Assembly: GCF_011405655.1 (NCBI RefSeq)
Contig: NZ_AP022829.1
Location: 310,001 to 374,000 of the forward strand
Direction of reading: 5' to 3'
Length of the DNA: 64,000 nucleotides
Source of the DNA: Adlercreutzia hattorii
GTDB taxonomy: Bacteria; Actinomycetota; Coriobacteriia; Coriobacteriales; Eggerthellaceae
The notes under the pieces are model-generated. The model saw only the letters and a program-made list of their open reading frames with translations, was not told where the DNA came from and made no database searches. Each line of letters begins with the position of its first letter. Position 1 is the first letter of the stretch. This document shows, piece after piece, positions 7,754 through 64,000 of the stretch. The position numbers and the translations under genes are program-made.

Positions 7754-9244
7754 ATGATAGATTTTCGCAACATTACATATTCATACGGCACCGATATGTC
7801 GCCATCACTCGCAAATGTGACCCTGCACGTAAACCCTGGCGAGGTGGTTCTTCTTACTGGAAGCTCGGGGTCGGGAAAGAGCACCTTGCTTCGTTTAGTG
7901 AACGGGCTGATTCCGCATTATCACGAAGGCGAGATGTCAGGCACTGTAACCGTTGCTGGTATAGAGCCCCGAGATAGAGAGTTATACGAACTCGCAAAGA
8001 TGGTTGGTTCTGTATTTCAGAATCCACAGACTCAGTTCTTCTGCCTAAACACGACCGAAGAGCTCGCTTTTTCCTGTGAGAACTTCGGATTGCCGGTGTC
8101 TGAGATTGCGCATCGCTTGGACACGACAGTTCAACAACTCTGTCTTGAAGAGTTGTTGAATAAAAACCCTTTCTTGCTATCCGGAGGACAAAAGCAACGT
8201 ATCGCTTGCGGATCTGCTCAAATGATGAACCAAGAAATCTTTGTCCTCGATGAGCCGTCTTCAAATCTAGATGGACGTTCGGTACGTCTTCTTGCCGAAG
8301 TGATCGCATATTGGAAAAAGGAAGGAAGGACCGTTTTAGTCGCGGAGCATCGACTTGGTTACTTGAAAGATATCGTAGACAGAGTCGTTGTGCTGAATAA
8401 AGGTTCCCTCATAGAAGATTTCGCCGCCTCTGACTTTTACGCCATGGGTTCAAGTGCCTTTATCAAAAGAGGACTGCGTGATCCTCATACGGAATGCTGC
8501 GTCGCGGTCACCGACCAGATAGATATTGCTGACGCGGGATTTGTTTCCGTCGCAAATCTCCAGTATTCCTACTCGAAAAAGATTAATGGCCTGAGCATTC
8601 CTTTGGCAAAATTTCCAATAGGGAGCATAACGGCTCTAGTAGGCGAGAACGGAGCCGGGAAGTCAACCCTTCTGCGCTGCCTCTGTGGGCTCAATAGAAA
8701 GTGCTATGGCACACTGGAGATCAACGGTGAACTGTTCGGGCTCAACAAACCAACCGGTCGTGCTTACATGGTTATGCAGAACACAGGAAATCAACTGTTT
8801 GCTGAAAGCGTTCGGGCTGAAGTAGAGTCGTCTTGCAGCTCGGCCGAAGAAGTTACCGCCATTCTGGATGCACTTGACCTCGCGGACCTTGCAGCTCGGC
8901 ATCCGCTGTCGCTCTCGGGTGGTCAGCAACAACGTGTTGCCGTTGCTTCCGCTATTGCATCAAATCGGGGCTTGCTCTTACTAGACGAACCGACAAGTGG
9001 CCTGGATTATCAGTCAATGCGCGAAGTGGCTTCGTCTTTGAAGAAGTCGTCTATCATGGGCTGCACGGTGATTGTCGTAACGCATGATAGGGAGTTCATC
9101 ACGAGTTGCTGTACACACTACGCCGTCTTGAAAAACGGTCGCCTCTCGGAAACAAGAGTTCTTGATGAAGATAGCGCCAGCGAGCTCAATGCTGCTCTTG
9201 ATGCTATGCAGAGCAGCGTCACTGATACGGCGTGTATGGTTTAG
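7754..9244 (+). CDS. ECF transporter duplicated ATPase
   Basis: A 496-residue protein with two ABC ATPase domains in one chain. Domain 1 has Walker A GSSGSGKST, signature LSGGQKQR and Walker B FVLDEPSSNLD. Domain 2 has Walker A GENGAGKST, signature LSGGQQQR and Walker B LLLDEPTSGLD. Both therefore look catalytically competent. It powers the membrane components encoded just upstream. I chose the ATG at 7754; a longer in-frame version starts inside the T-component gene and adds unrelated residues. The next gene is a same-strand AraC regulator only 16 bases further on, suggesting that regulator and transporter are coexpressed. Confidence 0.92.
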   Translation: MIDFRNITYSYGTDMSPSLANVTLHVNPGEVVLLTGSSGSGKSTLLRLVNGLIPHYHEGEMSGTVTVAGIEPRDRELYELAKMVGSVFQNPQTQFFCLNTTEELAFSCENFGLPVSEIAHRLDTTVQQLCLEELLNKNPFLLSGGQKQRIACGSAQMMNQEIFVLDEPSSNLDGRSVRLLAEVIAYWKKEGRTVLVAEHRLGYLKDIVDRVVVLNKGSLIEDFAASDFYAMGSSAFIKRGLRDPHTECCVAVTDQIDIADAGFVSVANLQYSYSKKINGLSIPLAKFPIGSITALVGENGAGKSTLLRCLCGLNRKCYGTLEINGELFGLNKPTGRAYMVMQNTGNQLFAESVRAEVESSCSSAEEVTAILDALDLADLAARHPLSLSGGQQQRVAVASAIASNRGLLLLDEPTSGLDYQSMREVASSLKKSSIMGCTVIVVTHDREFITSCCTHYAVLKNGRLSETRVLDEDSASELNAALDAMQSSVTDTACMV

Positions 9245-9260
9245 AAGCAAGAGGAAGTCA

Positions 9261-10241
9261 ATGGAGGGAATAACTAGCTATGCCGCGTTGGGTGATAACG
9301 TTGAGCGTATAAATCACAGCGGCACCATGAACACCTATCGCGTGATGTGCGAAGACGGTCAGGGAATTATGACCATGTACGAACTGTATCCCGGTATGAC
9401 TCTGAGCTTCAACGATTTCGTTGGAATGACGTCAACGAAATCAATGTTCAGGCTTAAAGACAACGCCGAGATGCTGTGCTTGAACTATTGTCGTGAGGGT
9501 CGTATTGAATGGGATGTGGCAAAAGATGAGAGCCTTTTTCTGGGAGCCGGGGATATAGGTATCGACGATCATACAATGCACTCGAGCGATTTCAGTTTTC
9601 CTTTGAAGTACTATCGGGGCGTCACCGCGTCATTTGAAATCGACGTCGCTCAAAAATGCATCAATAAAGGTGTGCTTAGCGGCTTTGCGGTCAACTTGAA
9701 AAACATTCAATCCGCTTTCTGCAACAGCTCTCACCACAAAGTGGTGAAACAGGGCGTGTCGGCGCTTGATCATGTATTCTCCGAAATATATACAGCTCCC
9801 GACTCTCAGCGGGAAACGTATTTGCGCATCAAGTTGTTAGAGCTTTTGTTTTTATTGGATTCGCTCTCATCTTCGAGTGATGCTGGAGAGGATCTATACC
9901 TTCGCAGATCACAAATCGAGAAAGTGCACGCTATCCAAGAAGCGATCACGTGCGACCTTAGCTCAGCCAAGACGCTCAAACAGCTGTCTGACGAATTTGA
10001 TTTTCCATATGTGAGCATGCAGGCTTGCTTCAAGCAGGTTTATGGAATGAGCATACATTCGTATCTCGTCCACTATCGAATCTCTCAAGCATCGCGCATG
10101 CTGCGCGAATCGGATGTACCAATTGGTGAAATTGCCTTATCTGTCGGCTATGTAAATGCATCCAAGTTCTCTTCGGCCTTCAAGGAAGCGACGGGCTTCA
10201 CGCCGAGCGAGTTCCGCGCGAGCGCTTCTTCTGAGATTTAA
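9261..10241 (+). CDS. AraC-family transcriptional regulator
   Basis: A 326-residue regulator. The N-terminal 200 residues resemble the variable sensing domain of AraC proteins associated with iron-siderophore systems (YbtA-like), and the C-terminal domain carries LKQLSDEFDFPYVSMQACFK and the second motif GYVNASKFSSAFKEATGFTP. The ATG at 9261 follows AGAGGAAG; the longer frame overlaps the ATPase gene. It sits between the ECF importer and a pair of fused ABC transporters. AraC regulators sit next to YbtP/YbtQ-type transporters in known siderophore loci, so a metal- or metallophore-responsive role is a reasonable inference, not shown here. Confidence 0.87.
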   Translation: MEGITSYAALGDNVERINHSGTMNTYRVMCEDGQGIMTMYELYPGMTLSFNDFVGMTSTKSMFRLKDNAEMLCLNYCREGRIEWDVAKDESLFLGAGDIGIDDHTMHSSDFSFPLKYYRGVTASFEIDVAQKCINKGVLSGFAVNLKNIQSAFCNSSHHKVVKQGVSALDHVFSEIYTAPDSQRETYLRIKLLELLFLLDSLSSSSDAGEDLYLRRSQIEKVHAIQEAITCDLSSAKTLKQLSDEFDFPYVSMQACFKQVYGMSIHSYLVHYRISQASRMLRESDVPIGEIALSVGYVNASKFSSAFKEATGFTPSEFRASASSEI

Positions 10242-10437
10242 AAGAACATAAAGGTCAATCCAATACGGGCGGGTTACCCCCGATCTCACAAATCACGATA
10301 CCTTACATTACGTCGTTCCTCTTTTTCGGCTTTTGTTCGCAGAGGTTCGGAATCAGTCCGTGCTTTGCTTCTGGTGCCTGAATCTCCGATAGGTTCTAGC
10401 TAAGTGTTTCATAAAGCATTGAAAGGAGTCTGTATAT

Positions 10438-12363
10438 ATGCAACATGATGAATCGTTGTCCGAATCTCCGGCAAAGCCATCCGGTCCCCCCGCTGACGGG
10501 GCAAGCGAATCGTCGCGCAAGCTGGGATTGGGCTATCTTCTCGGTTTTGCAGGTCGAAAGCGCTGGCTACTCTCTGTCGGTTGCGCTCTGTCCGCAATAG
10601 CCATGCTGCTCACATTCGGTCCTTATATCTGCATCTGGCTCGTTGCGCGCGACCTTATCGCGGTCGCCCCTGACTGGACGGCAGCAGAGAACCTGGCGCT
10701 TTACGGGTGGCTTGCGTTCTTCCTGGCCGTTGCGAGCCTCGTGCTGTACTTCTTCGCGCTGCTCTGTACCCACGCATGCGCCTTCCATACGGCGAGCAAC
10801 TTGCGGAAAGCCTGCCTAAGCCATCTCATGAAGGTGCAACTCGGCTACTTCGATACCCATGCGTCGGGCGCGCTCCGGCGCGTCATCGACGGGTGCGCTG
10901 GCTCCACAGAGGGGCTCATAGCGCACAAGACGCCCGATACGGCCGGATCCATCGCTATGGTACTGGGTCTTGTCGTCACGCTGTTCGTCTTCGACTGGCG
11001 CATGGGACTCGCATGTCTGATCGCGGCCGTCCTCGCTATCGCGTGCATGTTCTCCATGATGGGGGGCAAGAACGCGCACTTCATGCAGCGCTACATGCAA
11101 GCGCAGGTGAACATGGCCAAGACCGGAACCGAATACGTGCGCGGCATCCCCGTCGTGAAGGTCTTTCAGCAGACCGTCTTCTCGTTCAAGGCCTTCCACG
11201 ACGCCATAACCGAATACTCCGAAATGGCTGAGAACTATGCAGTGAAGGTATGCGCCAAGCCGCAGGTGACGTCTCTCACGGTCATCACGGGTATCGCCAT
11301 CTTTCTCGTGCCAGTGGTCATCCTCCTCGCCCCTGGTGCCGAGGCGGAGGGCTTCGCCGCGTTCGCGGGCTTTATAGCCGATTTCGCGTTCTATGCGATC
11401 TTCTCCGCCATCATCGCCACTGCCATAACGCGCCTCATGTTCGTGATGGAGGAGTTCGAGATCTCAGCTGATGCTGCGAACAGGACTCATGGCATCTTGA
11501 GCTCGCCTGTCCTCGCAGAGCCCGCGCATCCCGAGACTCCGCGAGCGCACGACATCGCCTTCGACAATGTCTGCTTCCGCTACGAAGACGCAGACCGCGA
11601 TGCCCTGACCGACGTGAGCTTCGAGGTTCCCCAAGGGGCCACGGTCGCCTTGGTCGGACCTAGCGGCGGAGGCAAGACCACGGCGGCGAGCCTGGTCCCG
11701 CGATTCTGGGATGTCAGTGCCGGTTCGGTGCGAATCGGCGGTATCGACGTGCGCGCGATCGACACGGCCGAGCTCATGCAGAGCATCGCCTTCGTGTTCC
11801 AGGACAACCGGCTGTTCAAAAAGTCCATCTACGAGAACGTCGCCGCGGCTCGCCCGGATGCCACGCGCGAAGACGTGATGTCCGCGTTGGCCGCCGCCCA
11901 GTGCGACGACATTCTCGCCAAGCTTCCCGACGGCGTTGACACGGTGGTGGGGACGGCCGGTGTCCACCTTTCGGGCGGTGAGAAGCAGCGCATCGCGCTT
12001 GCCCGCGCTATCTGCAAGCAAGCGCCCATCGTCGTGCTCGACGAGGCAACGGCCTTCGCTGATCCGGAGAACGAGGCGCTTATCCAAAAGGGTTTCGCCG
12101 AGCTGGCTCGGGACCGCACCGTCCTCATGATCGCCCATCGGCTTTCCACGGTCGTGGTGGCCGACAAGATCGTGGTCATCGAGGATGGCCGCGTCGTGGA
12201 ACAGGGAACCCATGACGAGCTGTTAGCTCGTGACGGACTTTATGCCCGTATGTGGGAGGAATATCAGCGTGCGGCTCTTTGGCGAATCAAGTCGGACTCT
12301 TCAATTGAGGACGAGGCCGTGGTCGTGTGCGAATCATCTGCGTCGGAAGGGGGCGTACGATAA
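10438..12363 (+). CDS. ABC transporter permease-ATPase half-molecule, YbtP/IrtA-like
   Basis: A 641-residue exporter-fold half transporter. Six hydrophobic helices lie within residues 35-320, followed by an ATPase domain with Walker A GPSGGGKTT, signature LSGGEKQR and Walker B VVLDEATAFADPENE. The ATAFADPENE variant, in place of the usual ATASLD, is characteristic of the YbtP/IrtA type of siderophore-importing transporters. It overlaps the next gene by one base (TAATG) and will act as a heterodimer with it. The start follows GAAAGGAGTC. These transporters use an exporter fold for import in yersiniabactin and mycobactin systems; the substrate here is unknown. Confidence 0.9.
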   Translation: MQHDESLSESPAKPSGPPADGASESSRKLGLGYLLGFAGRKRWLLSVGCALSAIAMLLTFGPYICIWLVARDLIAVAPDWTAAENLALYGWLAFFLAVASLVLYFFALLCTHACAFHTASNLRKACLSHLMKVQLGYFDTHASGALRRVIDGCAGSTEGLIAHKTPDTAGSIAMVLGLVVTLFVFDWRMGLACLIAAVLAIACMFSMMGGKNAHFMQRYMQAQVNMAKTGTEYVRGIPVVKVFQQTVFSFKAFHDAITEYSEMAENYAVKVCAKPQVTSLTVITGIAIFLVPVVILLAPGAEAEGFAAFAGFIADFAFYAIFSAIIATAITRLMFVMEEFEISADAANRTHGILSSPVLAEPAHPETPRAHDIAFDNVCFRYEDADRDALTDVSFEVPQGATVALVGPSGGGKTTAASLVPRFWDVSAGSVRIGGIDVRAIDTAELMQSIAFVFQDNRLFKKSIYENVAAARPDATREDVMSALAAAQCDDILAKLPDGVDTVVGTAGVHLSGGEKQRIALARAICKQAPIVVLDEATAFADPENEALIQKGFAELARDRTVLMIAHRLSTVVVADKIVVIEDGRVVEQGTHDELLARDGLYARMWEEYQRAALWRIKSDSSIEDEAVVVCESSASEGGVR

Positions 12364-37877: not shown

Positions 37878-39269
37878 TTACGACAGCGATTCGAGCATAT
37901 CCAGGAGCTCCTCGCGTGAATGGACGCCCAGCTTCAGATAAATACTGCGCACTTGGGAGCGTACGGTGTGGAAGGAGACGGTGAATTGTTCTGCGATGGA
38001 CTTTACCGTGTGCCCCTTGGCCAAGGGGACGAGAACGGCCGCTTCGCGCTCGGTGAGGTCGTGCTTCTTTGCGAGGTGAGCGCATTTGTCCTCAAGCGGC
38101 GAGGCGCTGGCGGCCGGCGATCGATGGGGGAGGCCAGTGTAGAAGAACCCGAATATCAGCACGAGCAGGGAGATCACGAGAAAGATCAGGGCGAGCACCA
38201 AAGCCGAGGGAGGGTCGAGGGCAAAGACCGTAACCAGAATCTCGCTTGCGAGGCGCGATGCGAAGAACAGGAATGCCGCCAGGCGAAAGCCGAGACAGGC
38301 AGGCTTTCCGACAGCGCTCGCCAACGTGCCCGGCAGGAAGAACATGAGTCCTCCCAAGAGGAACGCCGCCGTGTTGAGAAGAAAGGCGATGAGGTGTAAG
38401 CCGCTTTCGGGAAAAAGGATGACAAGCAGAGCGCTCAAGCAAATAAGGAGCACAAAGCCCGAGGCAAGCCAGAGGCCCGTGCGTAGCACAAAGGGCCTTC
38501 TCTGGAAGTAGAGCGCGAAAGCCCCCGTGACTACGACGCCCGCAAACGATGTAGTGGCAATCGAAATACCCGCCGAAGGTGTGAACACGGTGCGGAAGGC
38601 GAAGCTGAGCAAGCTGTAGGCGCAGATAGCTAGAGGCACGAGCGCCGAGAATTCGGATCGATCTTCCGGCGACGCCGGAGCCTCCTCTTCTGGAGGCAAT
38701 GGAGCAAGGAGAACGTCAAGGGCGACGGCGACGAGCATCAGCACGAGAAGCCCGAAGCGCGCGGGGACGGTCAGCGCCATGTAGAAGGTGAGCGCAAGCA
38801 CGGCCACTATTCCCGCGCAAAGCATTTGGAAGGATCCGCGCCGGGCCGAAAGGGGTCGGGCCATGCGCGACCAGAGGCAGAGGAGTGAGGCGCAGGTCGC
38901 GCCCATGAGCACTTGGCGAAGAACAAGGTATTGGAGGAGCTCGCCGGAAGGAACGAGAGGCTGGGCAACCAAGAGCGTCGCAGTTGCAAGGCCGAACGCG
39001 AGGGATGCGAACAGCGAGGGCGCGGGGCGGCCTTTTTTGGCGAGAGGGAGAGAGATGGCGAGCAGAGCGATAAAAGCTATCTGCCACGAGAAGGAAAGCA
39101 TTGCCGGCGAAGCGTCCGAGCCGGCCCCCGCGATCGCCGTCTGCCCCATGGATATGAGCAGCCAGCCCCAAATGAGGCCGGGCAGCAAGGCGAGCCGAAC
39201 CGTAGCGGGCAAGATCGACTCCTTCGGAGAATCCTGTTCGCACAAGTGGCCTTTTTCGCGTCGCGTCAT
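37878..39269 (-). CDS. Membrane-anchored LuxR-family transcriptional regulator
   Basis: A 463-residue protein with about 12 hydrophobic helices over residues 20-385 and a C-terminal LuxR/NarL helix-turn-helix (LTEREAAVLVPLAKGHTVKS, FHTVRSQVRSIYLKLGVHSR). This architecture is abundant in Eggerthellaceae, where such regulators stand beside reductase genes. It is divergent from the flavoprotein reductase at 39436, its probable target, 166 bases away. The ATG at 39269 is chosen; a GTG at 39287 would add six residues. The ligand is presumably membrane-soluble or bound by the membrane domain. Confidence 0.9.
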   Translation of the reverse strand: MTRREKGHLCEQDSPKESILPATVRLALLPGLIWGWLLISMGQTAIAGAGSDASPAMLSFSWQIAFIALLAISLPLAKKGRPAPSLFASLAFGLATATLLVAQPLVPSGELLQYLVLRQVLMGATCASLLCLWSRMARPLSARRGSFQMLCAGIVAVLALTFYMALTVPARFGLLVLMLVAVALDVLLAPLPPEEEAPASPEDRSEFSALVPLAICAYSLLSFAFRTVFTPSAGISIATTSFAGVVVTGAFALYFQRRPFVLRTGLWLASGFVLLICLSALLVILFPESGLHLIAFLLNTAAFLLGGLMFFLPGTLASAVGKPACLGFRLAAFLFFASRLASEILVTVFALDPPSALVLALIFLVISLLVLIFGFFYTGLPHRSPAASASPLEDKCAHLAKKHDLTEREAAVLVPLAKGHTVKSIAEQFTVSFHTVRSQVRSIYLKLGVHSREELLDMLESLS

Positions 39270-39435
39270 CAAATAACCTGTCCCCACCTGCCATTTAGCA
39301 CAAAATGAACGTGTGAATCGCGGGCATTTAGCTCATCGGGGGCGATGAACTGCCGCCCCTTTTCCCCGATTCTCTTCACGGCGGAATTATACCGCTGCGT
39401 AAAGGAAAAGGAAGTATGGATCGAGGAGGATAAGA

Positions 39436-55177: not shown

Positions 55178-56260
55178 TTACGAGAGAGTCTCGGACGGCT
55201 CGTCAAGGTCGAGCTCGGGCTCGATGGCCGAGGTGCCGGATGCGCCCGCAGTTGTTGGCTCCAGCGCTGGGGCGCCGGCCGTCTTGCGGGCGATGAGCGG
55301 GAAGCTGATGGCGTGCCCCGGGCACACATCGGCGCAGGCGTGGCAGCGGGTGCACTCGTTGAAGGTGGTACCCAGCTCCGGGTGGCGAGGATTGATGCCC
55401 ACCTCGCACGCCTCGGCGCAGCGTCCACAGGTGGCGTTGTGGGCGGTCTCCAGGCACTTCGCATCGTCGATGGCCGGCTGGAACGTGCGGTTGGCGCGAC
55501 CGATGAGGCTCATGAACGACGAGATGGGGCACAGGTGCGAGCACCATTTACGGAAGAAGATCACCTCGACGGCTATCAGCGCCGGGATGATGAGCACCGA
55601 CCAGGTGACATCGCCGCCGCCGAACAGCGCGATAAGCAGAAACACCATGGCGAACGACAGACCCACGGGGCATACCAGGCAGAATACCGGGAATCCGAAG
55701 ATGGCGGCGGAAAGCAGGGTGCCGCCCAGGATAATGTGGCGGGAATCGGCCGGCTTTCGGTCGGCGCAGGAGGAGCATCCGCCCGCGCACGAGGTTTTCA
55801 GGGCGCGCTTCTCGGCGGCGGAAAGGGGCGTGGCCTTCGTTGCTGGCGCCGCTGAGGTAGCTTCGGTTGCGGAGGGGCGACCGAGGTCGCCCCCTACGGA
55901 GGAGATCCCAGGGGCAGCGTCGGGCGCGGAGGAGATCCCGGAGGCAGCCCCTGCCGTAGAGGTGCCGCCCTTCTTGAAGATGCCGCGCAGCTTGCTCCAT
56001 ACGGGCACGGGGCAGAGCCACCCGCAGAAGGCGCGCCCCAAAAGCAGGATGGCGGCCACGGCCAGCACGATGGAGATGACCGCCCGCGGCACGAGCATCT
56101 TGCTGGCGAGCATGGTGCCCAAGGCTCCAATCGGACAGATAAGTGAAATGGATTCCCAGCCGAAGGCCGACAGGGTGCCCGCGCTGACGTGAGCGGCGTA
56201 GGCCACGCCGGCGGCGCCCAGCAGGGCCAGGGGAATGATGATGCGAAGTTTCTGACTCAT
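55178..56260 (-). CDS. NapH-like polyferredoxin membrane protein
   Basis: A 360-residue quinol-oxidising type membrane protein. Four or more helices carry the two CxxxCP motifs (CGWLCPVPVWSK and CLVCPVGLS) plus CSHLCPISSF, and the C-terminal part has two [4Fe-4S] clusters (CGRCAEACEVG and CTRCHACADVCPG). It should pass electrons from the quinone pool to the NapG-like protein encoded just upstream. The loop around residues 105-140 is low complexity (GISSAPDAAPGISSVGG) and is encoded partly by a palindromic repeat unit. Last gene of a six-gene operon. Confidence 0.9.
   Translation of the reverse strand: MSQKLRIIIPLALLGAAGVAYAAHVSAGTLSAFGWESISLICPIGALGTMLASKMLVPRAVISIVLAVAAILLLGRAFCGWLCPVPVWSKLRGIFKKGGTSTAGAASGISSAPDAAPGISSVGGDLGRPSATEATSAAPATKATPLSAAEKRALKTSCAGGCSSCADRKPADSRHIILGGTLLSAAIFGFPVFCLVCPVGLSFAMVFLLIALFGGGDVTWSVLIIPALIAVEVIFFRKWCSHLCPISSFMSLIGRANRTFQPAIDDAKCLETAHNATCGRCAEACEVGINPRHPELGTTFNECTRCHACADVCPGHAISFPLIARKTAGAPALEPTTAGASGTSAIEPELDLDEPSETLS
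55874..55899. repeat. Palindromic repeat unit inside the NapH-like gene
   Basis: GGGGCGACC-GA-GGTCGCCCC followed by CTACGG, closely related to the arms of the intergenic element at 16173-16260. It codes for the variable GGDLGRPS loop. Confidence 0.6.
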
Positions 56261-56269
56261 GACGACTCC

Positions 56270-56908
56270 TTAGGCCTCGCTCTCGGGAACGACGATGATG
56301 GCGCGCGAGGTGGCGCCGGTGGTGTAGGAGCCCTCTTTCTGGGACACGCACACGCTTTGGCAGGCACCGCACCCGTTGCAGTTGTCGGGCACGACGACGG
56401 GGCGGCCGTTCTCGTCCAGCTCGATGGCCTCGTAAGGGCACGCGTCGTAGCAGAACCGGCAGCCGTTGTTCTTGTCCCAGGCCAGGCACCATTCGCGAAT
56501 GAGCACGGCCTTGCCGATGATGGTGGTTTCGGCGGTCGCGTCGGCGGGCAGCGCCAGCGCCTCGGTGGGGCAGGCCGCCACACACAGCGGAACCCCGTCG
56601 TTCTCATCGGCGCAGAAGTCGCACCAGCCGTCGTTGAAGTTCGTCGTGGGAGTGCGCACGGAGACGATGCCGTCTTCAATGTGGGCCGGACGCAGCGCGC
56701 CGCGCGGGCAGGCTTCCACGCAGCGCTCGCAGCGAATGCACGATGCCACAAGCCGGCTCTCGTCCTGGCCTCCGGGTGGCCGCACCTGGGCCTCCGCGGG
56801 CACCAGCTTCAAGCCGCCCATGGCCAGAAGCACGCCGGCTCCTCCCACGCCCAAGGCGAAGGTGCGCCGGGACATGCCCGCGCCTTCTCGTTTCTTCTCG
56901 TCTCCCAT
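56270..56908 (-). CDS. NapG-like Tat-exported 4Fe-4S protein
   Basis: A 212-residue periplasm-side electron carrier. A twin-arginine leader (MSRRTFALGVGGAG, from residue 12) is followed by four cysteine clusters (CIRCERCVEACP, CDFCADEND...CVAACP, CRFCYDACP, CNGCGACQSVC). It matches NapG/MauM-type ferredoxins that bridge NapH and a molybdoenzyme. It is nine bases upstream of the NapH-like gene. Confidence 0.92.
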   Translation of the reverse strand: MGDEKKREGAGMSRRTFALGVGGAGVLLAMGGLKLVPAEAQVRPPGGQDESRLVASCIRCERCVEACPRGALRPAHIEDGIVSVRTPTTNFNDGWCDFCADENDGVPLCVAACPTEALALPADATAETTIIGKAVLIREWCLAWDKNNGCRFCYDACPYEAIELDENGRPVVVPDNCNGCGACQSVCVSQKEGSYTTGATSRAIIVVPESEA

Positions 56909-56960
56909 GTCTTCTCCTCTACTTAGAGGGCCGGCGCGACGGACGCGATCGGCCCGAACG

Positions 56961-57656
56961 CTAGTCCTCCGCGAGCAGCTCTTCCAGCACCTCGCGGTCG
57001 GTCTCTAGAAAGCCCTCCGTGAGGAAGGCGAGTCCCCGGTAGAAATCGGTCTTGGCGAACTTCTTCACCTCGGCGGTGAGCAGCGGCGCCCAGCTGTCCA
57101 GGTGCACGTCGAGGAAGTTGTACTGCGCGCGCACCCACGACGTTGCTGTGTCGGTATCGCCCTTGCAGAGCGCTTCTGCGGTGCGGTCGGAGAGAATTTG
57201 CAGGTACTCCAGCTCCAGCGCAATGTGATCCTCGCCCTCCTTCCAACTCTCCTGCTTGGAAAGCCCGGCGGCACGGTACAGCGCGAGCACCTCGTCGCGG
57301 GCGCTCTGCATGAGCAGGCGCTTCTCGCTGGAGTACACGCTTTCGAAGGGATAGGCCGCCGCATGGCCCGAATAGCCGTGGCCGAAGAAGGTGCGCATGT
57401 AATCGGCGGCCAGCTCGGTTAACGTGTTCTCCCAAATGCCGGAGAGGTAGGTGGCGATGAGGCGGTTGCCCGTATCGCCGGCGTCGGTGCCGGTCTCGAT
57501 GGGCCACAGCGTGTCGTGCAGCTCGTCGAGTAGCTCGGCGTCCACTTCCTTGGCGTACAGGCGCGACAGCAGCCCGTAGGTGGCACTGCGGTGCTTGAAC
57601 AGCTCGATCAGCTCGGACGGCGCGAGAGCCGTCTCTTCCAGAACTTCCTCAGTCAT
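56961..57656 (-). CDS. TorD-family molybdoenzyme chaperone
   Basis: A 231-residue helical cytoplasmic chaperone that loads cofactor into, and proofreads Tat export of, molybdopterin enzymes. The family features are an N-terminal helix bundle (RSATYGLLSRLYAKEVD) and the central YMRTFFGHGYSG...AYPFESVYSSEKRLLMQ stretch region. Its presence implies a Tat-exported molybdoenzyme client; none is encoded in this operon, but one starts at 63704. Confidence 0.9.
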   Translation of the reverse strand: MTEEVLEETALAPSELIELFKHRSATYGLLSRLYAKEVDAELLDELHDTLWPIETGTDAGDTGNRLIATYLSGIWENTLTELAADYMRTFFGHGYSGHAAAYPFESVYSSEKRLLMQSARDEVLALYRAAGLSKQESWKEGEDHIALELEYLQILSDRTAEALCKGDTDTATSWVRAQYNFLDVHLDSWAPLLTAEVKKFAKTDFYRGLAFLTEGFLETDREVLEELLAED

Positions 57657-57665
57657 GGCTCCTCC

Positions 57666-58586
57666 TTACCAGTTCACGCCATCGGTGAGGGTGGGTACAT
57701 TGGCGCACGTCACGTCGTCAACGGCGGGCACTTCGTAGTCGTCGACCACCTTGGCCAGCGCGCCGGCCAGCGCCGCACGGCCCGCATCGGTGGCGTGCCA
57801 GGCGCCGTCGGCCCAAACGAAGGCGCCGGCGCGCTCCAGGCTTTCCACGAAATGCTGCACGTAGAAGCGACGGTTCTCGGCGATGGCCGGATCGGTGTCG
57901 ACGGCCACGGACATGAGTCCCATGCTGGTGCCCTCTTCGGTGTCGGCCATGAGCAGAATGCGCTTGTACACGGGGAGGAACTCGGGCTCCTTGGCGAAGA
58001 GGCGCTCGATGCGCGCGGCGGGGTCGTCCTCGGCGAGCACCGTGGCGCCCGCTTCGGTGGTCTGCCAGTACACCGGTGGCGGGGTGGTGGGGCGCCAGAA
58101 GGCACGGCCGTCCACTTCCACCATCTCGGGCGCGCGCACCTCGTCGGTGTAGGGCTCGCCGGCATCGGTTACGCGCGCAAGGCCGCCGGCCACTTCCAGC
58201 ATGGTGCAGAAGTTAGAAGGCGTGTACACGGAGAACTTCCGGCCGCTGATGCGCTCGACGGCTTCCTTCATGGCGCTGGTTGCCATCGGCGCCTCGCAGG
58301 CGGCCAGGATGCCCAGCAGCGTGGCGCGGTGCGGGCGCATCTGGGACAGAAGCTCGCGGGTGCGCTCGTCGGCGGGGCGGGCGGCATAGGCCGGGTCATC
58401 GGTGCGCACCGAGTTCTCGATGACGGGCACGCGATCGGGGTCGGGGGGCAGAAACTCCGTGCGTCCTTCCACGTTGGGCAGGAAGATCTCGGAGGAGTCC
58501 AGCTCGGCGGGCTCATCGCTGACGGCCCAGGTGTCCAAGGTCGGGTCGAAGCTGAAGTTGAACGCGGACAAATCCGGTGTGCTCAC
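57666..58586 (-). CDS. Unrecognised protein in the NapGH/TorD operon
   Basis: A 306-residue soluble protein without a known motif. The first 65 residues are acidic and probably flexible. The middle (residues 80-150) looks like a winged-helix fold (RPHRATLLGILAACEAP, ATSAMKEAVERISGRKF, SNFCTMLEVAGGLARV), and a second similar unit may follow (FYVQHFVESLERAGAFV, HATDAGRAAL). It starts 12 bases after the upstream gene and ends nine bases before the torD-like gene, so it is part of that operon. Confidence 0.75.
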   Translation of the reverse strand: MSTPDLSAFNFSFDPTLDTWAVSDEPAELDSSEIFLPNVEGRTEFLPPDPDRVPVIENSVRTDDPAYAARPADERTRELLSQMRPHRATLLGILAACEAPMATSAMKEAVERISGRKFSVYTPSNFCTMLEVAGGLARVTDAGEPYTDEVRAPEMVEVDGRAFWRPTTPPPVYWQTTEAGATVLAEDDPAARIERLFAKEPEFLPVYKRILLMADTEEGTSMGLMSVAVDTDPAIAENRRFYVQHFVESLERAGAFVWADGAWHATDAGRAALAGALAKVVDDYEVPAVDDVTCANVPTLTDGVNW

Positions 58587-58598
58587 GGGAGCTCCTTT

Positions 58599-59273
58599 CT
58601 AGTTCAGGCCGGCATCGCGCAGAAAGCGCTGGCTGCCGACGGTGGTCGGCCGTGCCGCTCCCATCTCGCTGATGAAGTGCGTGGGAGTCAGACAGGCAAG
58701 GGAGACACCGTCGCGGGTGATCGTGCGGCGGTAGGGAAGGCGAATCTGATCGGCCAGGGCAACGTCCGCCTGAGCGAAATAGGAGAGCACCACATGGGGC
58801 CGATCGCCGGCGACAAGGCGGGCGAAGGCGGCGCGCTGCTCCTCTTGGGCCGCCCGGCTCGCTTTGTCGTCGCCTGTGGCCGCCGCCGTGGGCATAAGGC
58901 CCTCAGTGCAGCCGACAACGAACAGCCACTCGACGTTTCTCTTCGGGGCGCGGAAGTCGAAGATGACAGCGGCGCTACCGCTCGGCACTTCGCCGGCCTC
59001 TGCGATGCTGGCGCGCACGCCCATGACCTTGCAGGCCTGGGCCAGCTGTACGGCCCAGGTGCGGTTCGGCACGGAGAAGCCGATCTGATGGGGCAGCACG
59101 GCGTGATCGCGCAGCAGCACGGCGGCCCCTGCGGCAATGCCGCGCACCTCATCGGCGGGGCTTTCCCACTTCACGAGGGCGTGCACGCCACGCATCTCTT
59201 GGGGCTGCTGGGCCGCTGCGGACGCGTCGTTGCGCGAGACGGGCGAGTTGGCGGAAGCGTTCTCGGGTGCCAT
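58599..59273 (-). CDS. Unrecognised protein resembling a UvrD C-terminal domain, without Walker A
   Basis: A 224-residue protein. The pattern LLRDHAVLPHQIGFSVPNR, AVIFDFRAPKRNVEWLFVVGCTEGLMP and QRAAFARLVAGDRPHVVLSYF resembles the second helicase lobe of UvrD-type proteins (motifs IV-VI), yet there is no ATP-binding loop. It may be a domesticated helicase lobe. The ATG at 59273 is the first plausible start; the open frame continues upstream only as antisense of the next gene. Located inside the NapGH operon. Confidence 0.65.
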   Translation of the reverse strand: MAPENASANSPVSRNDASAAAQQPQEMRGVHALVKWESPADEVRGIAAGAAVLLRDHAVLPHQIGFSVPNRTWAVQLAQACKVMGVRASIAEAGEVPSGSAAVIFDFRAPKRNVEWLFVVGCTEGLMPTAAATGDDKASRAAQEEQRAAFARLVAGDRPHVVLSYFAQADVALADQIRLPYRRTITRDGVSLACLTPTHFISEMGAARPTTVGSQRFLRDAGLN

Positions 59274-59284
59274 GGGTATCTCCG

Positions 59285-60154
59285 CTAGCCGACGAAAGCC
59301 GCTGCGACGGAATCGTAGGTGCGTGTTGCGCCATCGGCCCCGATGACGGCCCACAGGGTGTAATCGACGGGGAAGTCGAAGGGGTCTTCCTCTTCTTCCT
59401 CTTCGCGCTGGGGACGCGGCAGTGCCTCGGAGTCGGTGGGAGGCACGGCGGTGTTTTCGTAGCTCTTGGCGATGACGTCCTCGGCGAGAAGTTCCTCGCG
59501 GGTCTTCTCCGGCGCGGGTTCGGCTGCCTCGTCGGCAACGTCGCCGCTCGGCGCCTCCTCGTCGGTGTCGGGCTCTTCCAAAACCTCGGGATGCTCGGTT
59601 GCCCAGGCCTCCCAGGCGGCGTCGCGCTGAGCGTTCCATGATTCGGCGCAAGGCAGCTCCACGCGCACGGCCTCGGCGAAGGTGCCGTCGTTGCGCAGAT
59701 TGCGAGCGGCGGTGACCCGTTCGGCTACGGCTTCGTCGACGGCGCCTGCGCCCTGGGGCCGCACCGCGACGGTGAAAGCTCCGGCGCCCAGTTCGATATC
59801 CAAGGTATCGAAGTGCACTTCCGGATAGCCGATCTTGCGCTGGCGATCGTTGAACACCTTCATGTTGTTGCCGATCTTGCGCAGCATGTTGCCGATCCAA
59901 GGCCCCACGATGGTTTCCCACCGCTCGTCGGCGCCTTCGTCGGCAGAGTTAAGATAAGAGTAGGTGCCCATGTTCACGATGAGACGCGCCGTGTTGCGCA
60001 CGGGGGCGTCCTCCGCGCTTTCACACGCATGGGTGCGAATAACGGGCGTGCCGATGTGGGCGTAGCTCCGATTGATTTCGAGGATGGTCTGCTCGGCGGC
60101 GACGCGCTCATCCAAATCGAGCACGAGCGTCAGCGACGGTCTTAGCAGTGCCAT
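59285..60154 (-). CDS. Unrecognised first gene of the NapGH/TorD operon
   Basis: A 289-residue protein. The N-terminal 160 residues are a folded domain with an alternating strand-helix pattern (LTLVLDLDERVAAEQTI, WIGNMLRKIGNNMKVF, HFDTLDIELGAGAFTVAV). The C-terminal 100 residues are strongly acidic. AAGGAGGGAAC precedes the ATG at 60154. No homologue comes to mind. It is transcribed from a promoter sharing motifs with that of the nearby LuxR gene. Confidence 0.72.
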   Translation of the reverse strand: MALLRPSLTLVLDLDERVAAEQTILEINRSYAHIGTPVIRTHACESAEDAPVRNTARLIVNMGTYSYLNSADEGADERWETIVGPWIGNMLRKIGNNMKVFNDRQRKIGYPEVHFDTLDIELGAGAFTVAVRPQGAGAVDEAVAERVTAARNLRNDGTFAEAVRVELPCAESWNAQRDAAWEAWATEHPEVLEEPDTDEEAPSGDVADEAAEPAPEKTREELLAEDVIAKSYENTAVPPTDSEALPRPQREEEEEEDPFDFPVDYTLWAVIGADGATRTYDSVAAAFVG

Positions 60155-60214
60155 GTTCCCTCCTTTTCTCTCGATTCCCCAATACGCCGAGAAGTTTAGG
60201 AGGGCTTTCATAGC

Positions 60215-60250
60215 CAGAATAATATGGTTCCTATGATTTCGCCTATGAAA
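60215..60250 (-). promoter_or_regulatory. Activator-type promoter of the NapGH/TorD operon
   Basis: On the minus strand, TTCATAGG (60249-60242) is followed after 17 bases by TATTATTCTG (60224-60215). CATAGG takes the place of the minus-35 box. TTTCATAG at 60207 and CTATGAAA at 60243 form an inverted pair, and another CATAGG lies in the spacer. The same pair of motifs precedes the LuxR gene at 63471-63506. Confidence 0.55.
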
Positions 60251-60284
60251 TGGCCTTTATGATGACGAAAACGCCAAGGGGGCT

Positions 60285-60335
60285 GCGCCCCGCGGCCTTT
60301 GTTCCGCAGCGGCTGGGACAAAGGCCGCGGGGCGC
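60285..60335. repeat. Perfect 18-bp inverted repeat in the leader of the ferredoxin gene
   Basis: GCGCCCCGCGGCCTTTGT (60285-60302) and its exact inverted copy (60318-60335) enclose 15 bases, 40 bases before the start at 60375. A transcript would form a very stable hairpin with no T-run. Confidence 0.7.
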
Positions 60336-60374
60336 GGTTCCGGTCGATACGCAGAGAGGACGCAAGGGGGAATC

Positions 60375-61589
60375 ATGGCGAGCATCGATACCATGCTGGG
60401 GCTCATCGGGAAGCTGGAAAGCCCGTACATCACCGTGCACCAGGAGCGGTGCGCGCTTGTTCGCAACCGTCACGCCGACTGCCTGCGCTGCGCTGAGTCC
60501 TGCGCGTCGGGCTGCATCTCCTACGACGGCGAGGTGCTCACCGTGTCGCCGGAGAAGTGCATCGGCTGCGGCACCTGCGCCACGGTGTGCCCCACCTGCG
60601 CCTTGGAGGCCCACCACCCGAGCGATGCGGCCCTCACGGCGGCGGCCCGCGCATCGCTTGCGGCCAACGAGGGCGCGGCCTATCTCGGTTGCGGCGAGCT
60701 TTTGGAGCGGGCGCGCGGCCGCTACGATGAAGAAAAGATCGCGCGTGTGGAATGCCTTGGCCGCGTGGACGAGTCCCTCCTGGCCGATCTTGCCGTGGAA
60801 GGCGCCCGAGAGGTGGTGCTCATTCACGGCGACTGCGAGCGCTGCGATCACGGGCGGGGTCGCGCCTGCGCCGAGGCGGTGGTGGAAACCGCCGAGAAGC
60901 TGCTGGAAATTTGGGGCGCGCCCATGACCGTGCGCTTCTCGGGAAAGCTGCCGGCCTCGGCCAAGAGGGCCGCCGACTACGACAGCGGGCGCCGCGCCGT
61001 GCTCGCGGAAGGCGCCGCGCTGGCCGCCCGTGCCGGGGTAGTCGTAGCGGAAACGGCGGTGACCGAGGCGCTGGGTGACGCCAGCAACGCGGATGCCGAG
61101 GGCGCGTTGGTCGTCGATGCCCGCGACGTGGGTCGCTATCTCAAAGTGATGGACGACGGTACGCTGCCCCATTTTATTCCCGACCGTCGCGAGCGTTTGC
61201 TCGACAGCCTGGCGGCCTTGGGCGAGCCGGAGGACGTCATGGTGGACACGCGCCTGTGGGGTCACGTCGTCATCGACACCGATGCGTGCGCCTCCTGCCA
61301 GATGTGCGCCGTGTTCTGCCCCACCGGCGCTTTGGCGAAGTTCACCGACGCCGACGGCACCTTCGGCGTGGAGCACCGTCCGAGCGACTGCGTGAAATGC
61401 CGCAGCTGCGAGGCCATCTGCCCCGAGCACGCCATCGAAATCTCCGAGGAGGTCTTCGCCGTGGATCTCCTGGGCGGCGTCACCGACCGCTACGTCATGC
61501 GCCCCCGCGCCGTGCAGCACGACACCCCCCATACCATCTGGCACAAAGCCCAAACCATGATGAAAACCGACCAAGTCTACGAGCGCTAA
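60375..61589 (+). CDS. Multi-cluster 4Fe-4S protein
   Basis: A 404-residue soluble protein with ferredoxin clusters at both ends: CLRCAESCASGC and CIGCGTCATVCPTC near residues 36-75, CASCQMCAVFCP and CVKCRSCEAICP near residues 305-360. The middle 200 residues bind no obvious cofactor (GDCERCDHGRGRACAEAVVE contains more cysteines). It is probably a cytoplasmic electron-distributing protein. Divergent from the NapGH operon and convergent, with a four-base overlap, with the LuxR gene. Confidence 0.85.
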   Translation: MASIDTMLGLIGKLESPYITVHQERCALVRNRHADCLRCAESCASGCISYDGEVLTVSPEKCIGCGTCATVCPTCALEAHHPSDAALTAAARASLAANEGAAYLGCGELLERARGRYDEEKIARVECLGRVDESLLADLAVEGAREVVLIHGDCERCDHGRGRACAEAVVETAEKLLEIWGAPMTVRFSGKLPASAKRAADYDSGRRAVLAEGAALAARAGVVVAETAVTEALGDASNADAEGALVVDARDVGRYLKVMDDGTLPHFIPDRRERLLDSLAALGEPEDVMVDTRLWGHVVIDTDACASCQMCAVFCPTGALAKFTDADGTFGVEHRPSDCVKCRSCEAICPEHAIEISEEVFAVDLLGGVTDRYVMRPRAVQHDTPHTIWHKAQTMMKTDQVYER

Positions 61590-63262
61590 TCCACCACCAT
61601 GGATTCCACCAGATCGATGAGCTCGTGCTGGGAGTGGACGTCCAGCTTGCGGTAGATGTGACGCATGTGGGTGTTGGCCGTGCCCGCGGAAATGTAGAGA
61701 GCCTCCTGGATGGCGGCGGAATTGCGGCCCTTCGCCAAAAGGAGCAGCACCTCGGTTTTCTTGCGCGACAGCAAAAAGGTATCGGCCACGGCGGCGCACT
61801 TCCGTTTGAAGCGTCCGGCGCGCTGCTCGGGAGATTCTTGGACGGCGGGAGTGGCTGGCTCCGGAATATCGCCCGGTGCAGAAGAGACGGCTCCCGGCGT
61901 ATCAGATGGCATCGGCACCACGGCTTCTTCGACGGAAGGTTCGCTTGCGGCAACTTCCCCGCCCATCAGCTCTTCCAAGTCGGTCTGGTCGTCCAGCAGA
62001 GGGCAGAGGCGACCGCGTATGAGCGTGCTGCGCATCTCGGCGCCGTTGGGCAGCGTCGCAACGCCGAGGGTCAGCGCGATGAGCCCGACCAAAGCCAGCA
62101 TCATCGGTTCGGTCGACGCCGCTTCCAAAAGACCGCCTGGCTGCAGCATGAGAAAACCGGCGAGGGAGCCGGCGGACAGAAGGCCGTGACCGAAGCCGAA
62201 GGTGGTAAAGGCGCTCACACGGTAGCTCTGGGCGATGTCGGCGTACATGACCCACAGGCACGCTTCCAGCATGAAGTAGGAGCCGAACAGGGCGAAGCAG
62301 CGGAAGGTGCCGTCGGTGCCATAGGGGGTGCACAGCGTCACGAGCAGTACGGCGATGAGGGGCACGAGCACGCGGAAGGCGAAGTTGCGCGACTTGCGCA
62401 GCGTGAGCATGGCCATGATGAGGGCTGCGCAAGCGAACAGGCTCGCCGCGAACACCGAGAAGGAGAAGGCGCTTTCCGCACCGCCCGCGGCCAGAAGCAG
62501 GTCCAGCAAAGGCCCGGTGAGCGCGCAGCAGCGTAGGATGCCCAGAAGCACGCCGAAAACGACCGAGGGAACACCGAGGTGCCCTACGAAGGAGGCGGTG
62601 CGCACGGGCATGGTCATGAACGAGAACTCCAGCTTGTCCACCAGATCGGCGGAGCATTTGTTCAGGCAGAGCAACTCGAGGAATGGCAGAGCCAGACATA
62701 GAAGGGCGCCGGCCGGCACAAAAGCCGCGCTCACGACGAGGGTGAGGGCGAACGCCAGCGCGCTCACCACCATGGAAAGCGCCGCGCACAGCGCAATGGT
62801 GGGCAGGTCGCACACGCTGAAGGAGACACCGAAGCTCATGAGCAGCATGGCCGATCCCACGCCGCTCGCCACGCCGGCAAGCACGAAGAGCGCGGCAGCC
62901 AAGGGCCCTACCGAGACCATGTTCCCCGCCATGCATAGAAGCGTCGCGCAGGCCACCAAAAACGCCGCGATCGCACGGTTGCGGCGGATGTGCGCCGGCG
63001 TGTCGAAGAGTTGGCGGGCCTGTTTCAGAAACACGGCGTACAGCAGCAACGCCACGGCGTGGAAGACGCCGGAGGTGGCGGAAAGCAGCAGCTGCATTGA
63101 ATCCGCTTCGGGAAAGAGGATGTACTGCCCGTTGAACATGAAGAGATAGACCCAGGCCCAGTGCAGCCCGAATCCCACGATAAGCGCCGGCGATACTTTC
63201 CCGGGCGCCCCGGTCTCCTCCTCGCGGTATTCCACTTCAACTTTGATATACGGCAGCTTCAT
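61586..63262 (-). CDS. Membrane-anchored LuxR-family transcriptional regulator
   Basis: A 558-residue regulator with about 12 hydrophobic helices (residues 25-430), an acidic Pro/Ser linker and a C-terminal LuxR helix-turn-helix (LSRKKTEVLLLLAKGRNSAA, SAGTANTHMRHIYRKLDVHS). The ATG at 63262 follows AGGGGAACT; the frame extends upstream without support. It is divergent from a molybdopterin oxidoreductase gene and near the NapGH operon; both its own promoter and the operon promoter carry the same motif, so it may control them. Confidence 0.9.
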   Translation of the reverse strand: MKLPYIKVEVEYREEETGAPGKVSPALIVGFGLHWAWVYLFMFNGQYILFPEADSMQLLLSATSGVFHAVALLLYAVFLKQARQLFDTPAHIRRNRAIAAFLVACATLLCMAGNMVSVGPLAAALFVLAGVASGVGSAMLLMSFGVSFSVCDLPTIALCAALSMVVSALAFALTLVVSAAFVPAGALLCLALPFLELLCLNKCSADLVDKLEFSFMTMPVRTASFVGHLGVPSVVFGVLLGILRCCALTGPLLDLLLAAGGAESAFSFSVFAASLFACAALIMAMLTLRKSRNFAFRVLVPLIAVLLVTLCTPYGTDGTFRCFALFGSYFMLEACLWVMYADIAQSYRVSAFTTFGFGHGLLSAGSLAGFLMLQPGGLLEAASTEPMMLALVGLIALTLGVATLPNGAEMRSTLIRGRLCPLLDDQTDLEELMGGEVAASEPSVEEAVVPMPSDTPGAVSSAPGDIPEPATPAVQESPEQRAGRFKRKCAAVADTFLLSRKKTEVLLLLAKGRNSAAIQEALYISAGTANTHMRHIYRKLDVHSQHELIDLVESMVVD

Positions 63263-63470
63263 AGTTCCCCTGTTCCAGCGCATCATGCAACAAGGTGCCC
63301 GGTATGGCGGCCCCTTGCCTTTCGTCCATGCAGCTGCTCCCCCGTATGTCCGCAGCAGAATTATGTCCTGCGATGATAACACAGAGTCAGCAGCCGGCGC
63401 GAAAAATCGTGCGGATGCGGGCCGTTTAGAGAATCCGCAGATCAAAACGGCTCATATGATCCTCTCCCCT

Positions 63471-63506
63471 CAGAATAATAGTCCCAAATCATAAGCCTCC
63501 TATGAA
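63471..63506 (-). promoter_or_regulatory. Activator-type promoter of the LuxR gene
   Basis: Minus strand: TTCATAGG (63506-63499), 18 bases, TATTATTCTG (63480-63471), as at 60215-60249. The leader to the start codon would be about 205 bases. A TCATATGA palindrome lies at 63452-63459. The rest of the 441-base divergent region shows no gene. Confidence 0.55.
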
Positions 63507-63703
63507 GGGGGACGATGCGCGCCTCCGTAGAATGGCGGCCGTAAGGCACCGTCCTGTCAGCGTCCCGGGGAAACCGGCGAGGGCGCGGAGGTAGCGGGCG
63601 CAACGCACAGCGCCAGCCTTCCGCCGAGTCGGGGGACAAGCCGCTCCATTTCGGTGCAGGAGAGAAACGGCAAAGGAAAAGGAAAGAGAGAGGTGGGGAT
63701 TTT

Positions 63704-64000
63704 ATGGCACAGCTAACCATGTCGCGTCGCAACTTCATGAAGACGATGGCTATCACCGGTGCGGCTGCAGCAGTAAGTTCCTCGGCGGTCGCGCCCATGC
63801 GAGCTCTCGCCGAAGATGCCGACGCTACCGCTGGCGAGCTGAAGCACGTGCGCACGTGCTGCCGTGCTTGCGGCAAGGTGGAGTGCGGCGTCTGGGTGAC
63901 GGTGCAGGACGGCAAGGCCATCAAGGTCGAAGGCGACGAATCGGCACCCCAAAGCCGCGGCCATTGCTGCGCGAAGTCGCAGTCGTCCATGCATGCGGCC
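63704..64000 (+). CDS. Tat-exported molybdopterin oxidoreductase, catalytic subunit (partial)
   Basis: The first 99 residues are present; the gene runs off the window. A twin-arginine leader (MSRRNFMKTMAITGA, from residue 6) with cleavage expected near ALAEDA is followed by the N-terminal [4Fe-4S] motif of DMSO reductase-family enzymes: CCRACGKVECG at 52-62 and the last Cys in GHCCAK near 88. VTVQDGKAIKVEGDE is also typical. GAGAGGTGGGG precedes the ATG. The nearby TorD and NapGH proteins could serve it. The substrate is unknown. Confidence 0.9.
   Translation, partial: MAQLTMSRRNFMKTMAITGAAAAVSSSAVAPMRALAEDADATAGELKHVRTCCRACGKVECGVWVTVQDGKAIKVEGDESAPQSRGHCCAKSQSSMHAA

Follow-up and report, generated by a model that had tools for sequence, protein, structure and literature searches.

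A 64,000-bp stretch of Adlercreutzia hattorii DNA (contig NZ_AP022829.1, positions 310,001 to 374,000; hereafter the window) contains two intergenic copies of a conserved dyad near a gene for a LuxR-type regulator with 12 predicted transmembrane (TM) helices. These copies, operators A and B, are most likely the operators of this adjoining regulator, which would be a dedicated local class II activator. Operator A lies between a leftward operon (U289-U224-U306-TorD-NapG-NapH, the TorD/NapGH operon) and a rightward gene for a 4Fe-4S protein. Operator B lies between luxR and a rightward operon that begins with a molybdopterin oxidoreductase gene. The sequence directly shows that the dyad exists, that it is conserved, that it stands at a fixed distance from a -10-like box and that such sites are concentrated at this locus. 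An earlier note on this DNA proposed that the LuxR protein controls the TorD/NapGH operon; this is well supported but unproven.

The motif pair and the dyad beneath it

The earlier note described a shared promoter motif before the TorD/NapGH operon and before luxR, matching at 18 positions. Both copies are exact. TTCATAGG-N17-TATTATTCTG is present at 60249-60215 and TTCATAGG-N18-TATTATTCTG at 63506-63471, both leftward on the (-) strand with 0 mismatches. The mean count of the exact motif in 100 dinucleotide shuffles of the window is 0.00. In the 2,908,404-bp genome, a scan for TTCATAGG-N15..20-TATTAT finds these two places only, both at this locus. The pair is thus real and not random, and with two matches genome-wide it is ruled out as a general promoter of the genome. 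Among 138 family genomes, the exact motif is present at this locus in two, the window's genome and G005, and four further genomes contain one stray match each.

The 18 matching positions are best read as half-sites in different registers and not as one repeated promoter. In the operon copy, TATTATT (AATAATA) is an inner half-site of the dyad and TTCATAGG an outer half-site. The second copy has the roles exchanged, with TTCATAGG as inner and TATTATT as outer half-site. The underlying element, found by comparing both intergenic regions across orthologous loci of 17 genomes, is the 17-bp dyad TCATAG-N5-CTATGA, which extends to about AATCATAG-N5-CTATGATT. In 34 sites, which comprise 33 different 27-mers, the 21-mer has six invariant positions (A0, A1, T2, A4, T14 and A18, 0-based).

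The dyad was scored at 16 positions over 299,273 bp, with expectations from mononucleotide shuffles. There are 37 dyads with a score of at least 12 (36 of them outside gene matches) against 2.15 expected, 25 with at least 13 against 0.15 and 17 with at least 14 against 0.0. Of the 17 loci read, 16 have a dyad of at least 12/16 ahead of the molybdopterin gene. Six genomes (G019, G021 and G051-G054) have tandem dyads exactly 45 bp apart before this gene, and in G050 and G096 a second dyad is 35 and 67 bp off, respectively.

When the 138 genomes are scanned for ATCATAG-N5-CTATGAT with at most one mismatch, 18 sites are found and 10 of them are at this locus. The reversed control pattern gives 14 sites in all. 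It is the concentration at one locus that is informative; the total of 18 is in effect no more than the control's 14. The sites include dyads before the U306-TorD operon in three genomes (G077, G078 and G079), which were not used for the consensus. In the window's own genome, WTMATA-N7-TATKAW without mismatch is present at two places, and both are the operators described here. The regulon therefore looks local.

Promoter geometry and the luxR gene

In all 33 scored target-facing promoters, a TANNNT box is found 19 or 20 bp past the dyad 21-mer. These are 16/16 molybdopterin, 7/7 4Fe-4S, 7/7 U289-operon and 3/3 U306-operon promoters, and the corresponding shuffle means are 0.04-0.27. The 4Fe-4S and U289-operon sets of seven are the same dyads viewed from opposite sides, since operator A is counted in the seven genomes in which U289 lies beside the 4Fe-4S gene. 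Left out of the counts are G020 (L087, too short) and the molybdopterin promoter of G077 (11/16).

Given the fixed distance to the -10-like box, the centre of the dyad falls some 42 bp upstream of the inferred start, a position typical of activation. With starts taken from the predicted boxes, the promoters appear to match class II activator geometry, for which the centre falls between -41 and -43. A TTGACA-like -35 box at 17 bp was not found by eye in any of the three window promoters. Operator A is symmetric, a single dyad with a -10-like box on either side at about equal distance, and so can serve the TorD/NapGH operon and the 4Fe-4S gene together.

This geometry changes how the motif is read. 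The TATTAT proposed as a -10 box is instead part of the half-site AATAATA, which is invariant in 7/7 genomes, and a TANNNT box is found further downstream in all seven. CATAGG was taken to replace the -35 box of the operon. The outer half-site that contains it is absent in two of the seven genomes, in all of which the inner dyad is intact. A/T-rich half-sites can be mistaken for -10 boxes. The proposed orientation of the two promoters holds for the operon copy, which has a leftward -10-like box, but the second copy fits the rightward molybdopterin gene.

Operator B bears on whether the regulator controls its own gene. Towards luxR, none of 11 scored dyads has a -10-like box at 19-20 bp (of the 14 divergent loci, 11 were counted, each with the dyad closest to luxR; G077, G078 and G079 were left out), and the second site is placed for the divergent molybdopterin gene (16/16). 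luxR is divergent from the molybdopterin gene in 14 of the 17 loci and inverted in two, G005 and G007; in G047 it has been relocated. In these last three genomes, the dyad remains with the molybdopterin gene. No dyad is found upstream of luxR in G005 or G047, where the best score is 9/16 in each; for G007, about 125 bp upstream of luxR are covered. The inverted luxR of G005 can be regarded as a natural experiment in which the gene has turned and the dyad has kept its place. Both inverted genes (L071 of G005, 9077-10810; L072 of G007, 126-1871) are from same-genus genomes. In G005, part of the luxR leader (CTGCGGACATA-GGGGGAGCAGC) has moved along with the gene.

In an autoregulated LuxR promoter, the operator is expected to be placed for luxR and kept with luxR, and operator B is neither. 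Autoregulation through operator B thus appears unsupported, although in the window species the adjoining operator may have an effect on luxR. In the earlier note's account, TTCATAGG is an activator site in place of the -35 box, TATTAT is the -10 box, and the LuxR protein both autoregulates and controls the operon. The exact motif pair is unique in the genome, its spacing of 17 or 18 bp is promoter-like, and the related DadR protein rose after dopamine, which its authors read as potential autoregulation (PMC9734109). Against these stand the membership of AATAATA in a conserved dyad, the -10-like boxes in every scored target direction with none of 11 towards luxR, and the dyad that stays with the molybdopterin gene in G005 and G047. 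Taken as a whole, that account is highly improbable. The part of it that stands is a common activator-type site tying the LuxR neighbourhood to the TorD/NapGH operon; its -10, -35 and luxR-promoter assignments do not.

The regulator, its proposed action and its rivals

The regulator matches GerE (PF00196) with 44.5 bits at residues 498-551, above the cut-off of 23.5, and thus has a LuxR-type C-terminal helix-turn-helix. An AlphaFold2 model (21 homologs, mean pLDDT 80.8) has 12 long helices within residues 25-402. In a Foldseek search, the sensor half of the model matches major facilitator superfamily (MFS) transporters, with OxlT the best (E 2e-6, probability 1.00). The modelled helices and the MFS-fold matches agree with the 10-12 N-terminal TM helices of the known 12-TM LuxR activators (PMC9734109), the kind to which the regulator belongs. 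The genes of the 10-12-TM LuxR regulators of Coriobacteriia lie beside molybdopterin or flavin enzyme genes; here a molybdopterin enzyme homolog is encoded at all 17 loci, directly beside luxR in 16.

Regulators of this kind have been proven to activate molybdopterin enzymes encoded next to them (PMC9734109). In Eggerthella lenta, membrane LuxR regulators determine which of the catechol-metabolising enzymes are switched on, and dozens more such regulators are unassigned (PMC9734109). No description of an operator was found in the passages and sections of that paper that were read, and the words MFS, major facilitator and transporter gave no match when looked for in its main text. In the open-licence literature searched, no operator or DNA target turned up for the membrane LuxR family.

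The window's regulator resembles DadR, HcdR and CadR, the 10-12-TM LuxR regulators of Coriobacteriia (PMC9734109), in its 12 TM helices and C-terminal GerE domain, its gene beside a molybdopterin enzyme gene and its presumed substrate-responsive local activation. It differs in that it seems to control three transcription units, with chaperone and NapGH-type genes among them.

Promoters of the lux-box type that are served by class II activators likewise have a dyad centred about -42 that abuts RNA polymerase. Here the core is 17 bp with a 5-bp spacer, extra half-sites lie 12-13 bp out, one dyad would be used in both directions and the regulator is predicted to be membrane-embedded. The modelled sensor half has the same fold as MFS transporters such as OxlT (8hpk, 6g9x), but is fused to a DNA-binding domain, and the identity to 8hpk is 15%; transport is not implied.

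We infer that the LuxR protein is the binder, that it activates and that it senses a ligand. By comparison with DadR, HcdR and CadR, the ligand sensed by the MFS-like membrane half is probably the molybdopterin enzyme's substrate. The ligand-bound, transporter-like half would then activate the DNA-binding half. The C-terminal helix-turn-helix would bind as a dimer to AATCATAG-N5-CTATGATT, about -42 and next to RNA polymerase, and LuxR on operators A and B would recruit the polymerase at three promoters. Operator B would turn on the rightward molybdopterin-enzyme operon, and operator A the 4Fe-4S gene on one side and the TorD/NapGH operon on the other. Catalytic, electron-transfer and maturation (chaperone) genes would thereby be co-induced.

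Several observations weigh against this reading or narrow it. The consensus was derived from the same loci that were later scored, and in the 17th locus (G077) the molybdopterin promoter has 11/16. In the 138-genome scan, 8 of the 18 sites are outside this locus; when the surroundings of seven of these were compared by blast, one was near a LuxR-domain match (35% identity) and another near a molybdopterin-enzyme match. Both dyads of the window's genome depart from the full consensus, and no site of this genome was picked up by the one-mismatch scan. In that genome, WTMATA-N7-TATKAW with one mismatch gives 12 more matches, equal to the control's 12; one overlaps operator A and one (2508238) adjoins another LuxR gene (L115). 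In the genomes G051-G054, a U289 gene was not detected, and no dyad adjoins the 4Fe-4S gene. Among the regions read in these genomes, the operator is found only before the molybdopterin gene, and the best dyad score in the operon region of G052 is 8/16. Control of the TorD/NapGH side is therefore not universal.

The dyads might instead be bound by some other regulator, such as a global one that responds to redox state or molybdate, with LuxR acting elsewhere. LuxR-type operators are diverse and LuxR binding is here a prediction, which leaves room for such a protein. A global regulator does not fit, however, with a genome whose only two matches without mismatch lie at this luxR. In addition, a luxR homolog accompanies the target genes in 17/17 loci, and 10 of 11 loci of a sister LuxR subfamily contain that subfamily's own dyad, built to the same geometry (see below). 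Binding by another regulator is unlikely. The dyads might also repress, or LuxR might have a dual role in which it activates its targets and represses luxR through an overlapping operator B. The position of operator B between the divergent luxR and molybdopterin genes in 14/17 loci would suit this arrangement, but the dyad centre has the position noted above as typical for activation. The known family members are likewise activators (PMC9734109). Repression or a dual role is thus very unlikely, and local activation by the adjoining LuxR protein is preferred.

The locus and a possible family-wide code

Table 1. Predicted sites and genes at the locus, in window coordinates
Feature	Position	Strand	Remarks
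Operator A, inner dyad TAATAT-N5-CTATGA	60220-60236, centre 60228	.	AATAATA...TATGATT in 7/7 genomes with U289 beside the 4Fe-4S gene
Outer half-site TCATAG	60208-60213	+	12 bp from the inner left half-site; TTTCATA in 5/7 genomes
Outer half-site CTATGA	60243-60248	+	TTCATAGG of the earlier note, read on the (-) strand; TATGAA in 5/7 genomes
Predicted -10 TAAACT, TorD/NapGH operon	60193-60198	-	inferred start ~60186; TANNNT in 7/7; TATACT in six relatives
Predicted -10 TATGAT, 4Fe-4S gene	60258-60263	+	inferred start ~60270; 7/7
Operator B, dyad TCATAA-N5-CTATGA	63489-63505, centre 63497	.	
Extra half-site TAATAG	63476-63481	+	TATTATT of the earlier note; 13 bp from the dyad's left half-site
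Predicted -10 TAGAAT, molybdopterin-enzyme operon	63528-63533	+	inferred start ~63540; 16/16 scored
Target operon, six genes	55178-60154	-	
U289	59285-60154	-	no Pfam or NCBIfam match
U224	58599-59273	-	
U306	57666-58586	-	no Pfam or NCBIfam match
TorD-type chaperone	56961-57656	-	
4Fe-4S protein	56270-56908	-	NapG in the earlier note; Pfam: 4Fe-4S domains only
NapH-type protein	55178-56260	-	
Target gene, 404-aa protein	60375-61589	+	several 4Fe-4S sites; weak FlpD match
12-TM LuxR regulator, 558 aa	61586-63262	-	GerE helix-turn-helix 498-551; N-terminal MFS-like domain
Target operon, start: 1172-aa molybdopterin oxidoreductase	63704-64000, continues beyond the window	+	TAT signal

Across the 17 loci read, synteny extends to much of the gene set. 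A luxR homolog and a molybdopterin enzyme homolog are present in every one, and the two adjoin directly in 16. The molybdopterin gene (Table 1) is followed by genes for a 220-aa Fe-S subunit and a 292-aa protein. Its product has acetylene hydratase as the best sequence match among solved structures, and its closest orthologs are 75-96% identical. In G046 (L073, 5040-8625, and L008), the molybdopterin enzyme is in two overlapping pieces and luxR has one internal TAG, a possible decay or assembly error. The window contains a second gene with a LuxR-type domain, a 484-aa frame at about 37896-39400 (-). No high-scoring TCA-type dyad was found upstream of it, the best being 10/14.

A long palindrome (GCGCCCCGCGGCCTTTGT...ACAAAGGCCGCGGGGCGC), potentially able to fold into a hairpin, lies in the leader of the 4Fe-4S gene (60285-60335). 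The G005 leader lacks it, and its sole second match in the genome is its own reverse complement. In the molybdopterin-gene leader (63540-63700), the blocks GTAAGGCACCG, CCCGGGGAAACCG and CGGGGGACAAGCCGC are shared with G005 and partly with G007, a possible structured leader. Rfam gives no match on the 20-kb locus or on 63400-63720, so no known RNA family explains these leaders. In the sampled 318 kb of G052 (L148, L150, L153, L162 and L183), TGTTTCACGTGAAACA palindromes occur eight times, two of them 35 bp apart. This palindrome corresponds to the parS-type ParB site.

The sister LuxR subfamily consists of homologs that, where aligned, have 26-31% identity. Its dyad, TCAACC-N5-GGTTGA, has the same geometry with other inner bases. 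The recognition helix is S(K/R)STAKTHI(N/S) in the sister subfamily and mostly SAGTANTHMR or SEGTARTHMR in the subfamily of the window. The sister dyad matches at 11 or more of 12 positions in 10 of 11 sister loci, eight of them perfectly (0.2 expected), and also in L021. In L023, it reaches only 10/12 and is far from luxR. Upstream of luxR in the sister loci L021 and L024-L034, a second, degenerate copy lies nearer luxR in L025, L026 and L034, the first two of which are close relatives of each other.

Two further regulators likewise have a dyad of this geometry that is shared by the window's genome and G052, each with a TANNNT box at 22 bp: TCACAC/TCACAT-N5-GTGTGA (regulators of L107/L183, 71% identical) and TCATCA-N5-TGATGA (those of L141/L158, 48%). 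In a strict test, perfect dyads with outer TCA and a 5-bp spacer were counted in 40 LuxR regions of the window's genome and 40 of G052 (317,640 bases), part of 68 and 90 GerE matches, respectively. In the window's genome there are five against 0.28 expected, one of them within the end of a luxR reading frame; a spacer of 10 gives four against 0.45. The repeat in G052 failed, with two against 0.78, and spacers of 6 and 15 gave five and six. A looser test, which takes 5/6 pairs and a TANNNT box at 21 or 22 bp, covered 45 luxR upstream regions of the window's genome and 58 of G052. The 5-bp spacer comes out on top in both genomes (6 and 10, against 0-5 and 2-9 for other spacers), and with perfect pairing it ties with spacer 7 in G052. 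This looser geometry test is suggestive only. In a best-score test upstream of 46 luxR genes of the window's genome, four score at least 13, against 0.1 expected, and the other 42 are below.

From such sequence comparisons, a family-wide operator code is offered as a possibility and not as a result. It is conceivable, if somewhat short of an even chance, that the family's MFS-fold LuxR regulators, dozens per genome, read one grammar. This would be a 6-N5-6 dyad, in many cases TCAxyz-N5-z'y'x'TGA, placed some 21-22 bp before the -10 box, with the inner triplet set by the recognition helix. Candidate triplets are TAG for the regulator of the window, ACC for the sister subfamily, and CAC/CAT and TCA for the dyads that related regulators of two genera have in common. 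A defined operator and promoter geometry gives access to a regulon and to a binding site that can be tested, and opens a way of assigning inducers. If the code were true, the targets of each regulator of the family would be predictable from sequence.

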